Below, one piece after another: positions 37,597 through 44,899 of a stretch of DNA of 64,000 nt. The notes under the pieces were generated by a model, which was given only the letters and a program-made list of their open reading frames with translations, was not told where the DNA came from and made no database searches. The translations under genes and the position numbers were made by a program. The stretch spans positions 186,001-250,000 of the forward strand of contig NZ_AP014924.1 in assembly GCF_001544015.1 (NCBI RefSeq), given 5' to 3'. This DNA comes from Limnochorda pilosa. Lineage in GTDB: Bacteria > Bacillota > Limnochordia > Limnochordales > Limnochordaceae. Positions within the stretch are counted from its first letter, which is position 1, and every line of letters starts with the position of its first letter.

Positions 37597-38751
37597 ATGA
37601 GAGAGCTTGGGGTTGACGACCGAGAGACCCCCGGGTTCGATCCAGTCCCGGATCGGTTCCGAAGGGCGCTCCGGCCGGCGCGGTGGACGGGCGGGGGCGC
37701 CCTCGTGGTGCTGCTGGCCGCAGCGCTGGTGGCGATGCTCTCCGCCCGGGAAGCGACCGCCGCCTCCGACGACGGGTCGTGCGCCGACTGCCACGCCAGC
37801 CGGACCCTCGGCACCACCTTCCCGTCGGGGCAGTTTCACGACCTGTTCGTGAAAGAGAAGACTTTCCTTGATTCCGTCCATGGAGAGGCCGGCCTCTCCT
37901 GCACCGACTGCCACTGGGGGTACGACGAGGTGCCCCACCCGGCCGAGGAGAGCCGTACCCGGCGTGAATACGAGGTGGGCTCGGCCGAGGTCTGCCAGAC
38001 CTGCCATTTCGACCAGGCCAAGGAGTGGGAGGCGGGGGAGCACGCCCGGGTGCTGAGCACCCAGAACCTCCAGTCCGCCACCTGTACCGACTGCCATGGC
38101 GCCCACGACGCGCAGCCCGCCCGGAGCTTGCAGGGCCAGGGGCTGGACGCCTCGTGTGCGAGCTGTCACGAGCCGCTGGTGCGGGAGTTCGAGGGCAGCA
38201 TCCACGGGCAGGCGCTCCTGGCCGGCGACCCGGCGGCACCCAGCTGCAGCACCTGCCACGATCCCCACACCACCGAACCCGTGGGCACCGCGGCCTATCG
38301 GGTCCAGTCGGTGGGGACGTGCGTCTCTTGCCATGAGGACACCTCCCTGGCCGAAGGTCACGGCATCAACCCCGACGTGGTGAACACCTACTTCGACGAG
38401 TTCCACGGCCGGAGCCTCCGGCTCACCATGGCCACCCAGCCCGGGGAGTGGGTCGCGCAGGCCGTCTGCACCGACTGCCACGGGGTGCACGGCATCCTGC
38501 CGCCCGACGACCCCCACGCCCAGGTGGCTCCCGAGAACCTGGTGGCCACCTGCAGCCAGTGCCACCCCGGCGCCACCAGCAACTTCGTGGCCAGCTTCGG
38601 AGGGCACGTGCCGCCTGAGCGATCGACGCTGGTGCGGGCGATCGAGCTCTTTTACCAGATCGTGATCCCGGTGTCCGTGGCGGGCTTCGTACTCTTCGCG
38701 GTCCTGGACGGGGCCCGCCGCTTCAGGGAACGGAGGAGGGTGGGGCGATGA
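37597..38751 (+). CDS. Nine-heme membrane-anchored cytochrome c
   Basis: This 384-aa protein has nine CxxCH sites: CADCH, CTDCH, CQTCH, CTDCH, CASCH, CSTCH, CVSCH, CTDCH and CSQCH. An N-terminal signal/anchor (about 32-50, [19 protein letters not shown]) and a C-terminal membrane helix (about 355-372, [19 protein letters not shown]) place the hemes outside the membrane. The ATG at 37597 follows GCGGGGGG. Its stop overlaps the start of a cytochrome b gene. Nine c hemes beside a FdnI/HydC-like b subunit recall CbcL of Geobacter, where both parts are one polypeptide. The electron acceptor is unknown. Confidence 0.85.
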
Positions 38752-39521
38752 GCGCGCAGGCTGTCGAACGCCCGGGGGAGCCGGGGAAGGTGGCGCGGCT
38801 CGAGATCGGTCCGGACGGCCGGCCCGTCTACCGGCGCTTCAGCCGCCTGGAAACCGTGGAGCACGCGGTGCTCCTGGCCTCCTTCACCATGCTGGCCCTC
38901 ACGGGCCTGCCCCAGATCTGGCCTGAGGCTGCCTTGGGAAGCTGGTGGCTGCGGCTCCTGGGCGGCATCGATGCGGCCCGAGCCGTCCACCGCTTCTTTG
39001 CGGTGGTGATGATGGCCGAGACCTTCTTCCACGTGGCCCGCACCTTCCTGGGCGGGCTCCGCCACGGCTTCCGTTTCGACATCTTCCCGGGACTGGGCGA
39101 CGTGCGGGAGCTCTTCCACACGGTCCGCTACCTGGTGGGCCTGGAGCCCGCCCCGCCGCCCGTGGGCCGCTTCGGCTTCAAGGAGAAGTTCGAGTACTGG
39201 GCCCTCATCTGGGGCGTGGTGGTCATGGGGATCACCGGCCTGATCCTCTGGTACCCGGTGCTCTTCACCCGGTACCTCCCGGGCGTGGCGGTACCCGCCG
39301 CCCGGGTGGCCCACCGGGGCGAGGCGATCCTGGCCGTGCTGGCCATCGTCATCTGGCACATGTACAACGCGCACCTGCGGCCCGACGTCTTCCCCATGGA
39401 CCGGAGCATCTTCTCGGGCACCATCACCCTCGAGCGCCTCAAAGAGGAGCACCCGCTCGAGTATCAGCAGGCCTTTGGCCGGGAGCCTTCCCGGTCCAGA
39501 TCCAGGCGGAAGGAGGGGTAG
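38748..39521 (+). CDS. Cytochrome b subunit (FdnI/HydC-like quinone site)
   Basis: This 257-aa protein has four membrane helices with histidines placed as b-heme ligands: the helix with [29 protein letters not shown], and [19 protein letters not shown]. It resembles the cytochrome b of formate dehydrogenase and hydrogenase. It would carry electrons between the quinone pool and the adjacent nine-heme protein. The ATG overlaps the previous stop (ATGA), and the next cytochrome follows two bases after its own stop. Confidence 0.8.
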
Positions 39522-39523
39522 AG

Positions 39524-39958
39524 ATGAGAAGCACGTGGCGGGGACAGGCCCGCTGGATCGCGCTGGGTCTGGTGGCGGCCGTGGCCGTTCTGGGCTTCAC
39601 CTTCATTGGCCAGGCTGCGGACCAGCTCCGGGAGATCCCGGGCATCACCGTGGCCGACGACCACCCCAACGGGTGCGTGGACTGCCACAAGCCCGACAGC
39701 AAGTACTCGCTGCAGGCCGAGGTCACGAACCTCGCGGACGCGGGCGGACATCCCGACGTCGCGAGCAAGATGAAGGAGCCGGCCGACTGCCTGATGTGCC
39801 ACGAGAGCGATGGTCGCCTTCCCATGGGCGAGATCATGCACGTGGCGCACCTGACGGGCGGCGCTGAGAACCACTTCATCTCGGGCTACGACGGCGAATG
39901 CATGTACTGCCACAGCCTGGGAGACGACGGGTCCATCGGCGTGAAGGGTCTGGAATAA
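39524..39958 (+). CDS. Tri-heme cytochrome c with membrane anchor
   Basis: This 144-aa protein has an N-terminal signal/anchor (WIALGLVAAVAVLGFTFIG) and three CxxCH motifs: CVDCH, CLMCH and CMYCH. Extra histidines (H-L, HVAH) are available as distal ligands. The ATG follows AAGGAGGGG. It is the third gene of the cytochrome operon and probably relays electrons from the nine-heme subunit, or forms part of the same complex. Confidence 0.82.
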   Translation: MRSTWRGQARWIALGLVAAVAVLGFTFIGQAADQLREIPGITVADDHPNGCVDCHKPDSKYSLQAEVTNLADAGGHPDVASKMKEPADCLMCHESDGRLPMGEIMHVAHLTGGAENHFISGYDGECMYCHSLGDDGSIGVKGLE

Positions 39959-40031
39959 GGAAGCCCGGGACTGCGGGGTCGCTTCCTCCCCGCAGCCCCG
40001 GTCCCCTGGCTCCCCAGAAGAGGTGATGGCC

Positions 40032-40460
40032 GTGCGGAAGCGGTGGAAGCTCCTGGTCGTCCTGGCCGCGGTGGTCCTGGTGGGGGCGTTGCTGGCCTCA
40101 GGCCTGCGCGGGGGAACCACCTACTACTTCACCGTGGATGAGGCGCTGGCGCGCGAGGCGACCAAGCCCGGACAGCGGTTCCGCATCGCGGGCAAGGTGG
40201 TGCCGGGGAGCATCGATTGGCAACCGAACCAGTTCCGCCTCGCCTTCTCGGTGGAGGACGAGGGCGGTCAGGTGCCCGTGGTCTACCAGGGCGCCCGTCC
40301 CGACAACTTCACCGACGGCGGTGACGTGGTGGTGGAGGGCCGCTTCCAGGGAGCCGCCTTCCAGGCGGAGACGCTCCTGGTCCAGTGCCCCAGCAAGTAC
40401 GAACCCGCACCGGAGGGACACCCCACCTCCGCCGGGACCGAAGCGGGTGAGCGGCCATGA
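40032..40460 (+). CDS. ccmE: CcmE heme chaperone, cysteine type (CxxxY)
   Basis: This 142-aa membrane-anchored beta-barrel protein has an N-terminal anchor (LLVVLAAVVLVGALLASGL), then YYFTVDEALAREATK, FRIAGKVVPGSI and FTDGGDVVVEGRF, as in CcmE. The heme-binding HxxxY of most bacteria is replaced by CPSKY, the CxxxY form known from archaea and some bacteria. The start is uncertain: GTG 40032 fits AGAGG best, and GTG 40023 and ATG 40026 are alternatives. It overlaps ccmF by four bases. Confidence 0.85.
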   Translation: MRKRWKLLVVLAAVVLVGALLASGLRGGTTYYFTVDEALAREATKPGQRFRIAGKVVPGSIDWQPNQFRLAFSVEDEGGQVPVVYQGARPDNFTDGGDVVVEGRFQGAAFQAETLLVQCPSKYEPAPEGHPTSAGTEAGERP

Positions 40461-42478
40461 CCTCCCTCGGCCACTGGACGCTGATCGCCGCCCTCGCGAC
40501 CGGCCTGTACGGCCTGGTGGTCCTGGTGGGCTCGGCCCGGAACGGGGACGCCCGTCTCCTCCGGCACGGGCGCGCGGCGCTCTGGGCCTCCGTCCTGCTG
40601 GTGACCGCCTCCTCCGCCGTTCTGCTTGGAGCCCTGTTGCGGGCGGACTTCAGCTTCCTCTACGTGGCCCAGCACACCAACCTGGACCTCTCGCCCATCT
40701 ACCGGCTCTCGGCCTTCTGGGCCGGGCAGGAGGGGTCGCTGCTGCTGTGGCTGTGGCTCCTGCTCTTGGAGGGTGCCCTGGCCCTGGGTCTCGGGCGGAG
40801 GGAGCGGGCCGACGGCACCGGGCACCTGGACGCGCCCGCGGGCGCGGTGATCCTGGGTGTGGCCCTCTTCTTCGAGGTGCTGCTGGTGACGGCTACGTCG
40901 CCCTTCCGGTCCCTGAGCCCCGTACCGCCTGACGGTGCCGGTCTCAACCCGCTCCTGCAGAACGCGGGGATGCTCATCCACCCGGTGACCCTGTACCTGG
41001 GTTTCGTCGGCTTCACCATCCCCTTCGCCTTCGCCATGGCCGCCCTGCTCGCGGGCGACCCGAGCCCCGCGTGGGTGCGGCGCACCCGGCGCTGGAGCCT
41101 GCTGTCCTGGCTCTTCCTCACCCTGGGGATCGTCTACGGCATGCAGTGGGCGTACGTGGAGCTGGGCTGGGGCGGCTTCTGGGCGTGGGATCCGGTGGAG
41201 AACGCCTCCCTCATCCCGTGGCTCACGGCCACCGCCTTCCTCCACGGGGCGCGGGTCTGGGAGCAGCGGGGCGGCTTCAAACTGTGGACGGTGGGCCTCC
41301 TGGCGGCCACCTTCCTTCTGACCCTCTTCGGCACGTACCTCACCCGCAGCGGCGTGGTCAGCTCGGTGCACGCCTTCGCCGACACCTCCCTGGGCTACTT
41401 CTTCCTAGGCTTTCTGCTGCTGGCAGGTGCGGCCAGCGCTGGGTTGATCCTTTACCGCCGGGGGACCCTGGGCGATGATCGGGAGGTGGACCATCCGGTG
41501 AGCCGGGAGGGCGCGTTCTTGCTGGGCGTTCTGCTGCTGACGGGGGCAGCGGTCACCGTGCTCCTGGGCACCCTCTCTCCCGTGCTCTCGGAGCTGATCA
41601 CCGGGGCCAGGGTGCAGCTCGACGCCACCTTCTTCAACCGGGTGGTACCGCCCATCGGGCTGGCCATCGTGGCTGTGATGGGCCTGGCGCCCGTCCTGCC
41701 GTGGAGGAAGGCTTCGGGGCGGACGGCCCGGAGGCTGCTCTGGCCCGTAGGGATGGCGGTTCTGACGGCGGGCCTCCTCGCGGCGCTCGGCATGCGAAAC
41801 GGCCCGGCGCTGGGCACCTTTTCCCTCGCCGCCCTGGTGCTGACCGTGACCGGGCTCGAGCTCTTCCGAGGCGCCCGCACCCACGCCCGCGGCCCCGCCG
41901 GCTGGGTGGCCGGGGCCGCACGCTCGGCGCGCCTCAACCGGAGCCGGGTGGGCGGCTACCTCGTCCACGTGGGCGTGGTGGTGATGGTGGTGGGCATGAC
42001 GGGAGCGGTCCTTTTCGCCAGCTCCAGCGACCACGTCCTCCAGGCCGGGCAGATGGTGGACGTGGGCGGATACGGGGTACACTTCACGGGGCTGCGGGAG
42101 CGGCTCGACTCGCGCACCCAGGCGACCGTCTACACCGACCTCCTCCTCATCCGCGACAAGAAGCCGGCCGGGAGCCTCAGGCCCGAGAAGGTCTTCTACA
42201 GCTACTCGGAGCAGCCCACCACCGAGCCCGCCATCCTGGGCGGCCCCCGGGGCGACCTGTACGTGATCCTGAACGGATGGGAGGACGGCGGCCGGGTGGC
42301 CGGCTTCACCTTCGTCCAGCACCCATTGATCAGCTGGATGTGGTGGGGATCCTATCTCATGGGCCTGGGCGGGCTGGTGGCCCTCTGGCCGGCGGCGCAG
42401 ACCCAGGCGGCCTGGGCCCGGCGGCCGGCCGTGCACCGCGGCGCCGCCATGGCGGCGAGGGAGGCGAGCAAGGGATGA
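40457..42478 (+). CDS. ccmF: CcmF heme lyase for c-type cytochromes
   Basis: This 673-aa polytopic protein attaches heme to CxxCH sites. WGGFWAWDPVENASLIPW is the tryptophan-rich heme-handling motif, and GQEGSLLLWLWLLLL and TRSGVVSSVHAF are conserved. About a dozen or more helices and the large C-terminal periplasmic domain are present. The ATG overlaps ccmE (ATGA). It would mature the multiheme cytochromes encoded just upstream. Confidence 0.95.
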   Translation: MTSLGHWTLIAALATGLYGLVVLVGSARNGDARLLRHGRAALWASVLLVTASSAVLLGALLRADFSFLYVAQHTNLDLSPIYRLSAFWAGQEGSLLLWLWLLLLEGALALGLGRRERADGTGHLDAPAGAVILGVALFFEVLLVTATSPFRSLSPVPPDGAGLNPLLQNAGMLIHPVTLYLGFVGFTIPFAFAMAALLAGDPSPAWVRRTRRWSLLSWLFLTLGIVYGMQWAYVELGWGGFWAWDPVENASLIPWLTATAFLHGARVWEQRGGFKLWTVGLLAATFLLTLFGTYLTRSGVVSSVHAFADTSLGYFFLGFLLLAGAASAGLILYRRGTLGDDREVDHPVSREGAFLLGVLLLTGAAVTVLLGTLSPVLSELITGARVQLDATFFNRVVPPIGLAIVAVMGLAPVLPWRKASGRTARRLLWPVGMAVLTAGLLAALGMRNGPALGTFSLAALVLTVTGLELFRGARTHARGPAGWVAGAARSARLNRSRVGGYLVHVGVVVMVVGMTGAVLFASSSDHVLQAGQMVDVGGYGVHFTGLRERLDSRTQATVYTDLLLIRDKKPAGSLRPEKVFYSYSEQPTTEPAILGGPRGDLYVILNGWEDGGRVAGFTFVQHPLISWMWWGSYLMGLGGLVALWPAAQTQAAWARRPAVHRGAAMAAREASKG

Positions 42479-42942: not shown

Positions 42943-44280
42943 ATGGCGTTGCAGATGAGCAGCAGGCGGCACGTGGGGCTCCTCACCCACCGGTGGCTCG
43001 ATGCCTACACCCGGAGCCGCTGGCAGGCCGGGGCCCTCTTCGCCCTCTGCCTGGCCGTGCTGGATCGCTTCTTCGCCCTGCCCTACCCGCTCCTGCCGCT
43101 GCTGGCTCTCACCGCCGTCTACGCGGCGCTCCAGCCGCTCTTCACCGCTCTGCTCGAGCGGTTCGACGAGTCCGACGCCAGCATGGCCGGGGTGGAACTG
43201 GTGGTGGACAGCCTGCTGGTGGCGGGCGTCCTCTACTGGACGGGCGGCGTCGAGAGCCCCTTCCACTGGCTCTGGATCGTGATGGTGATGCTGGCGGCCC
43301 TGGCCGGCGGGCGCAGGGCGAGCCTGCTCATGGCCGCGTGGATCACGGGCCTCGACGCGATCGAGATGGGTTTCGAGTACTGGGGCATCCTTCCACACCA
43401 CCACGTGGACATCATGCCCAACCACCCCCTCGGCCAGTTCCTGGACCCACGCGCCGTGGCCGTCAACCTGGCGATCAACGGGCTCTTCTTTCTGGTGGCC
43501 GGGTACCTGTCGGGGATCCTGGTGGAGACCGCCCAGCATCAGGCCCGCCGTCTGGGTGTGGTGGAGCAGGAGCTGCGGCGCCAGGAGGAGACCCGCAAGC
43601 GGTTGCTGCGCCAGGTGGTGACCGCCCAGGAGGAGGAGCGCAAGCGGGTGGCCCGGGAGCTGCACGACGAGTCGAGCCAGATGGTGACGGCCCTGCTGCT
43701 GAACGTGAAGCACGTGGAGCAGCAGATCCGGGCGGGAGGCGACATCTCGGGCCCCATCCGCACCGTGGAGACCCTGGCCGATCGGGCCCTCAGCGCGCTG
43801 GGGCGGGTGATCTGGGCCCTGCGCCCCCAGGACCTGGACGAGCTGGGGCTGGTGGCGGCGGTGCGCCACGCGGCGGAGACGGTGCTGGGCGCATCCGCGG
43901 CCGTCCACTTCGACGCCCGCATCGACCGGGAGCTGCCCGACGAGGTGGAGATCACCCTCTACCGGGTGCTGCAGGAGGCCATCACCAACGTGGCCCGGCA
44001 CGCGCACGCGCGGCAGGTCTGGATTGACCTCCACGAGGACGAGACGGGCGTCCGCCTTCGGGTGGAGGACGACGGGGTGGGTTTCCGTCCCGACGAGGTC
44101 CGCCGGGAGCCCGAGGGGGGCATCGGGCTCTCGGGGATGGAGGAGCGGATCCGCCTGTTCGATGGTTCCTTCGAGCTGGACTCGGCGCCCGGCCGCGGGA
44201 CCCGGGTCACGGCCTGGATACCCCTGGAATCCGAGGAGGTGCAGCCCGATGAGGCCCGTGCGCGTGCTGATCGTCGATGA
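42943..44280 (+). CDS. NarL-type sensor histidine kinase (HisKA_3)
   Basis: This 445-aa kinase has five or six N-terminal membrane helices (to about residue 195) forming an MASE-like sensor, with an unusual HHHVD segment in the last loop. A coiled region (EQELRRQEETRKRLLRQVVT) precedes the phospho-accepting His241 in VARELHDESSQ. A HATPase domain follows with EAITNVARHA, VEDDGVGF and GIGLSGMEERI. It overlaps its response regulator by 32 bases. It may sense redox or heme state for the adjacent cytochrome genes, which is inference from position. Confidence 0.9.
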   Translation: MALQMSSRRHVGLLTHRWLDAYTRSRWQAGALFALCLAVLDRFFALPYPLLPLLALTAVYAALQPLFTALLERFDESDASMAGVELVVDSLLVAGVLYWTGGVESPFHWLWIVMVMLAALAGGRRASLLMAAWITGLDAIEMGFEYWGILPHHHVDIMPNHPLGQFLDPRAVAVNLAINGLFFLVAGYLSGILVETAQHQARRLGVVEQELRRQEETRKRLLRQVVTAQEEERKRVARELHDESSQMVTALLLNVKHVEQQIRAGGDISGPIRTVETLADRALSALGRVIWALRPQDLDELGLVAAVRHAAETVLGASAAVHFDARIDRELPDEVEITLYRVLQEAITNVARHAHARQVWIDLHEDETGVRLRVEDDGVGFRPDEVRREPEGGIGLSGMEERIRLFDGSFELDSAPGRGTRVTAWIPLESEEVQPDEARARADRR

Positions 44281-44899
44281 CCAGCAAATGATCCGCGAGG
44301 GTATCTCCCTCATTCTCAAGAGCCACCCCGGCATCGAGGTGGTCGGTGAGGCCGCCAACGGGCGGGAGGCTCTGGAACGGGTGGAGGCGAGCCAGCCCGA
44401 CGTGGTCTTGATGGACATCAGCATGCCGGAGCTGAACGGCATCGACGCCACGGTGGTCTTGAAGCGCCGCTTCCCCCAGGTGAAGGTGCTGGCCCTCACG
44501 GTCCACGACGCGGAGGGCTACATCCTGCAGCTCCTGCGGGCGGGGGCGTCGGGCTACATCGTGAAGAAGGCGGCCGGCGACGAGCTGATCGAGGCGATCC
44601 GGTGCGTCTGCCGGGGCGACTACTACCTCCACCCCACCGTCACTCGCCAGGTGATCGAGGAGTACGTCCGTCACATGCAGGAAGGCACCCGCGGCCCTGA
44701 GGACCTCCTCACCGAGCGCGAGCGGCAGATCGTCCAGCTCGCGGCCGAAGGGTACAAGAACCGGGAGATCGCCGAGCGGCTCAACATCTCCCTGAAGACG
44801 GTGGAGACCCACCGGGCCAACATCATGCAGAAGCTGAACATCTCAGACCGGGTCGAGTTGGTGCGGTACGCCATCCGCGCCGGCATCATCGAGCCGTGA
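44249..44899 (+). CDS. NarL/FixJ-type response regulator
   Basis: This 216-aa regulator has a receiver domain (VRVLIVDDQQMIREGISLIL) with phospho-acceptor Asp56 in VLMDISMP and conserved Lys in YIVKKAAGDE, and a C-terminal LuxR-type helix-turn-helix (LTERERQIVQLAAEGYKNRE ... ISLKTVETHRANIMQKLNI). The ATG follows GAGGAGGTG. It is partnered with the preceding kinase. Confidence 0.94.
   Translation: MRPVRVLIVDDQQMIREGISLILKSHPGIEVVGEAANGREALERVEASQPDVVLMDISMPELNGIDATVVLKRRFPQVKVLALTVHDAEGYILQLLRAGASGYIVKKAAGDELIEAIRCVCRGDYYLHPTVTRQVIEEYVRHMQEGTRGPEDLLTERERQIVQLAAEGYKNREIAERLNISLKTVETHRANIMQKLNISDRVELVRYAIRAGIIEP

Follow-up and report, generated by a model that had tools for sequence, protein, structure and literature searches.

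The window analysed here, a stretch of 64,000 nucleotides (bases 186001-250000) from the genome of Limnochorda pilosa (3,817,036 bases, a single contig), contains on its forward strand three consecutive genes for a nine-heme c-type cytochrome, a cytochrome b and a triheme cytochrome. A reading made from the sequence only had taken this trio for an unusual, split version of the fused CbcL protein that feeds extracellular electron transfer in Geobacter. The locus thus raises the question whether such a split is unusual at all, from where the module derives and to which reaction it might contribute.

The first gene (37597..38751) encodes a protein of 384 amino acids that starts with an export helix, ends in a membrane helix (residues 344-383 in the AlphaFold2 model, pLDDT 83) and contains nine CxxCH motifs. 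At most two such motifs were obtained in 20,000 shuffles of the same composition. All nine motifs are invariant and situated in the same alignment columns in 21 of 21 nine-heme homologues, and exactly nine additional histidines (positions 95, 114, 149, 170, 203, 224, 270, 298 and 337) are likewise invariant in 21 of 21, which is the number expected if each of the nine hemes has bis-histidine coordination. Because the nine motifs are matched by nine extra invariant histidines, no obvious open catalytic heme is left, and the alignment suggests electron transfer rather than catalysis; the protein is predicted to be a membrane-anchored, periplasmic electron-transfer subunit. The top PDB matches of its predicted fold are hydroxylamine oxidoreductases, with a TM of only 0.36, too low to be informative. 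A 7+2 heme insertion specific to Limnochorda, hinted at by the first alignment, was dropped, since the nine motifs co-align in the 21 nine-heme homologues.

The second gene (38748..39521; 257 amino acids) contains no CxxCH motif, matches Pfam PF01292 above cut-off and has its closest solved relative in the cytochrome b556 subunit of formate dehydrogenase-N (1kqf_C, E 4e-12). Its His39, 81, 189 and 204 align with His18, 57, 155 and 169 of FdnI, which we take to be the heme-ligand positions, and are invariant across a 14-sequence alignment of relatives; the ligand positions of a diheme cytochrome b, as in split oxidoreductases of the CbcBA/Mco type, are present. The product is predicted to be an FdnI/HydC-like diheme cytochrome b forming the quinone-site subunit. 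Concerning TIGR01583 (formate dehydrogenase gamma / hydrogenase cytochrome b), it scores 59 bits and stays below the cut-off of 116, which is passed by a separate gene at 1908780 in the same genome, and no catalytic subunit of a formate dehydrogenase or hydrogenase is encoded with it.

The third gene (39524..39958; 144 amino acids, ATG start) possesses three CxxCH motifs, compared with a maximum of one in 20,000 same-composition shuffles, and an export signal recognised by eye. It encodes a secreted triheme c-type cytochrome, the role of which is probably that of a periplasmic shuttle. Its structure model is poor (pLDDT 50) and its PDB matches are weak, neither of which demonstrates a PpcA-like fold.

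That a nine-heme membrane cytochrome, an FdnI/HydC-like cytochrome b and a triheme cytochrome occur together, as the sequence-only reading had stated, is borne out by the CxxCH counts, PF01292 and 1kqf_C. The overlapping operon that it described exists only in part: genes 1 and 2 are separate ORFs that share the 4 bases ATGA (38748-38751), in which the one stops and the other starts, whereas genes 2 and 3 are separated by 2 bases. A scan for promoters and terminators yielded nothing exceeding shuffles. After the trio follow, on the same strand, the System I cytochrome c maturation genes (40023-42478) for a CcmE heme chaperone (40023..40460; PF03100, E 2e-29) and a CcmF/NrfE-type heme lyase (40457..42478; PF16327, PF01578, TIGR00353). 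These are followed by a two-component system of possible regulators, i.e., a sensor histidine kinase (42943..44280; HisKA_3, HATPase_c) and a LuxR/NarL-type response regulator (44252..44899; Response_reg, GerE; start codon selected manually). In a second genome of the order (G190), the trio is likewise followed by CcmE and by a LuxR-type regulator. With CcmE, CcmF and the two-component system as next genes, no terminal reductase lies beside the trio, in agreement with the earlier reading; within the window, neither an adjacent NrfA catalytic subunit, as in NrfHA nitrite reductase, nor any further protein with multiple CxxCH motifs is encoded.

A search throughout GTDB with the cytochrome b of gene 2, from which the best 80 of a larger number of loci were taken and their neighbours read by script, places this arrangement in a wider context. 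In 79 of these best 80 loci, from many phyla, a homologous multiheme cytochrome is either encoded next to the cytochrome b or joined to it in one polypeptide: 56 loci are split, 23 are fused, and one (L133), cut near a contig end, is undecided. Among the split loci, the multiheme gene is situated directly upstream in 51 and directly downstream in three; in L099 and L141, a nine-heme gene lies just upstream of the cytochrome b, behind an over-long ORF start. Heme counts among the 51 upstream-paired loci peak at nine (19/51), the commonest split form, and nine hemes were therefore rejected as a mark of CbcL ancestry for the best 80 loci. Another multiheme gene (3 to 19 hemes) follows next downstream in 31 of the 51. 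Homologues standing consistently beside a dedicated reductase, which would have spoken against the earlier reading, were not encountered: the neighbours are mostly other multiheme cytochromes, and the ten downstream ones scanned are NrfH-, DmsE- or octaheme-like, below cut-off, without one dedicated reductase. At least seven changes between split and fused forms are found on the cytochrome b tree.

The two-gene design is thus widespread, and it is already described: split Cbc-like pairs are published for the Gram-positive Carboxydocella (PMC6085454), CbcBA has been described from Geobacter as well as Seep-SRB2 (PMC10553843), and Mco from ANME archaea (PMC9012536). Genes 1 and 2, an adjacent FdnI/HydC-like cytochrome b and membrane-anchored multiheme cytochrome c, therefore belong to a known kind, and the supposed peculiarity of the split does not hold. 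Split cytochrome c-b quinone modules constitute the common form, of which the fused CbcL-type proteins are one variant.

Concerning descent, the cytochrome b tree, which is of quick grade, unites the gene 2 protein and four Geochordaceae sequences in a clade (support 97) within a clade of 24 rows (support 96), consisting mainly of split modules of Chloroflexota. Most other Bacillota modules, mostly with seven hemes, form another clade (support 97). Fused proteins of CbcL-like architecture sit in the same tree; since all 24 rows of the window's clade are split and no fused member occurs among them, nothing shows a derivation from CbcL. A common origin with the other Bacillota modules is rejected by the tree and by an AU test in which the Limnochordales rows were forced together with the other Bacillota (p-AU 0.017, on the quick tree and for a group named after the tree had been seen). 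In these diderm Bacillota, the module thus has its affinities with Chloroflexota and not with other Bacillota.

A neighbourhood search for the trio in other genomes, suggested by the sequence-only reading, revealed the same gene order in four other Limnochordales genomes. The triheme is present in 5 of 14 genomes of the order, in all five directly after the genes for a multiheme cytochrome c and a cytochrome b. While the multiheme subunit of L. pilosa has nine hemes, those of the remaining four genomes have seven. As the seven-heme Geochordaceae subunits (L179, L043, L178, L180) are nevertheless located in the nine-heme clade on the cytochrome b tree, a loss from nine is suggested. In a Limnochordales genome that lacks the trio, a sequence matching the cytochrome b weakly (33%) is interrupted by a single stop (L208, G215:C8:5983-6642) and may be a decayed copy. 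The triheme family is also found in other Bacillota, where the loci examined have no cytochrome b of the gene 2 family nearby, except for one (G090) with the triheme near a cytochrome c-b pair on the opposite strand. Because it thus occurs mostly away from such a cytochrome b outside the order, the triheme looks like a free carrier recruited into the operon. The pairing of the two-gene design with a dedicated triheme carrier is all that looks particular to this lineage.

We consider it likely that the trio forms an inner-membrane quinol:periplasmic cytochrome c oxidoreductase served by a dedicated triheme shuttle, since the FdnI-like cytochrome b keeps its four ligands, b and c are paired in nearly all of the best GTDB loci, and the gene order is conserved in five genomes; the quinone-to-cytochrome c role assigned by the sequence-only reading is likewise supported, as a prediction from sequence. 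Further points in its favour are that CbcL, with nine c hemes, donates electrons to its triheme partner PpcA in Geobacter (PMC9129911), and that quinol/methanophenazine:cytochrome c activity is assigned to CbcBA and Mco (PMC10553843, PMC9012536). The cytochrome b would exchange electrons with menaquinone via its two b hemes. Next in line, on the periplasmic face, would be the membrane-anchored gene 1 protein with its nine c hemes, predicted to be bis-histidine coordinated. The small secreted triheme may accept electrons from this protein and ferry them to a periplasmic or outer-membrane acceptor, or may instead bring them in from a donor at one of these sites; a secreted pentaheme cytochrome encoded elsewhere is a candidate partner.

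An outer membrane is present, as the host, a deep-branching member of the Bacillota, is not Gram-positive in its envelope, contrary to the sequence-only reading: Limnochordia are diderm (PMC11448272, PMC11456536), and Omp85 is encoded in the L. pilosa genome. This diderm envelope, the same kind of protein as CbcL and CbcBA, and the co-occurrence of a secreted pentaheme that is weakly OcwA-like would suit a module through which, as with those proteins in Geobacter, electrons enter a complete extracellular transfer chain at the inner membrane, with minerals, electrodes or humics as acceptors. However, among the matches listed by family searches of the genome there are few multiheme proteins, and neither an MtrA-type decaheme nor a large extracellular cytochrome. 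Besides the trio, they comprise another cytochrome c-b module, a cytochrome of a Psr locus, a split-Soret-like protein and the secreted pentaheme. Moreover, two of the trio genomes (G355 and G190) appear to be those of the cultivated strains LN and L945, which did not respire Fe-NTA, nitrate or nitrite (PMC11456536). L. pilosa, LN and L945 are given there as the three closed genomes of the order; G355, with NirK above cut-off and 71-72% GC in the pieces analysed, fits LN (nirK; 70.96%), and G190, without NirK and with 68-70% GC, fits L945 (69.48%). If these assignments are right, the trio does not confer respiration of Fe-NTA. Full extracellular electron transfer appears unlikely.

The same strains bear on two further explanations. 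According to PMC11456536, both isolates have a nitric-oxide reductase, LN has NirK, L945 has a nitrous-oxide reductase, and most Limnochordales possess aa3 oxidases. Each of these enzymes might receive electrons from the module, but none is encoded near the trio, the oxidases occur also where the trio is absent (PMC11456536), and NirK exceeds its cut-off in one trio genome (G355) and in three genomes without the trio while lacking in G190. Copper nitrite reductase was rejected as trio partner, as it shows no co-occurrence across the Limnochordales genomes, and delivery to any such known terminal enzyme is decidedly unlikely. That the module runs in reverse, reducing quinone with electrons from periplasmic or external donors, finds a parallel in CbcL/MtrH/MtoC homologues, which occur in Fe(II)-oxidising as well as Fe(III)-reducing organisms (PMC6295460), and in the direction proposed for CbcBA in Seep-SRB2 (PMC10553843). 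Yet the neighbouring genes include none for a dedicated donor enzyme, and LN, which unlike L945 does not oxidise CO, H2 and formate (PMC11456536), appears to carry the trio nonetheless. We regard this direction as very unlikely.

The second cytochrome c-b module of L. pilosa (L039:13292-15807; G000:C1:383291-385806) pairs a ten-heme membrane cytochrome with a cytochrome b that carries two CxxCH motifs in its C-terminal part. It is situated in an apparent selenium locus with a YedE selenium transporter (484 bits, cut-off 200), UGSC-like proteins, a rhodanese and a cysteine desulfurase, a setting that hints at a respiratory role linked to selenium or sulfur. A Psr/Phs-like molybdoenzyme locus (L040:10695-19424; G000:C1:1420694-1429423) holds a seven-heme ExtM-like cytochrome and a two-heme C_GCAxxG_C_C (split-Soret-like) protein.

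For the preferred quinol:cytochrome c oxidoreductase, the secreted pentaheme (L041:7671-8693; G000:C1:1532670-1533692) is the candidate partner. Homologues with 31% identity exist in G190, G354 and G355 (L214:6074-7300, L216:6331-7482 and L215), so that, counting L. pilosa, four of five genomes with the trio have it, against 0 of 9 in the rest of the order (Fisher p 0.005, a value that ignores kinship among few related genomes). The pentaheme profile weakly matches NrfA and 6qvm (E 6e-4), presumably OcwA, and CxxCK is absent from the pentaheme homologues. As a partner of the trio it is a lead only. A complete minimal chain, acquired independently of the other Bacillota modules and leading from quinol via diheme b, nine-heme c and triheme shuttle to the OcwA-like pentaheme and a periplasmic or extracellular acceptor, is a speculative extension that we regard as unlikely. 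Should the pentaheme prove to be where the chain ends, its small number of parts would make it amenable to reconstitution; the trio itself points to a putative respiratory branch in cultivable strains.

Among known systems close to the trio are the split nine-heme modules of Chloroflexota (Anaerolineales, Bellilinea, Thermoflexus; L074, L076, L077, L085, L086, L093), which share its gene order and nine motif columns and the cytochromes b of which belong to its 24-row clade. They differ in that the third gene is another one or absent; a triheme of the gene 3 family was not found in these loci. CbcBA of Geobacter sulfurreducens, likened by description, equally has separate b and multiheme c subunits and a quinone:periplasmic cytochrome c role. 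Its CbcA subunit presumably has seven c hemes, compared with nine in gene 1. Also by description, the clusters of Carboxydocella thermautotrophica resemble genes 1 and 2 in a diheme b separate from a membrane-anchored multiheme c (PMC6085454). Mco of ANME archaea likewise has a cytochrome b beside a multiheme c, namely a VhtC-like b and a c of 7-11 hemes (PMC9012536), but is archaeal, uses methanophenazine and is related to the hydrogenase subunit VhtC. CbcL, MtrH and MtoC share with genes 1 and 2 c hemes and an FdnI/HydC-like diheme b domain, and gene 1, by its nine motifs, is comparable to their N-terminal multiheme part (3-23 CxxCH; nine in CbcL). Their homologues are listed from 15 phyla, without Firmicutes or Chloroflexi among them, and form one fused polypeptide, mostly with six membrane helices (PMC6295460), whereas in the window the c- and b-heme domains are encoded by two genes.
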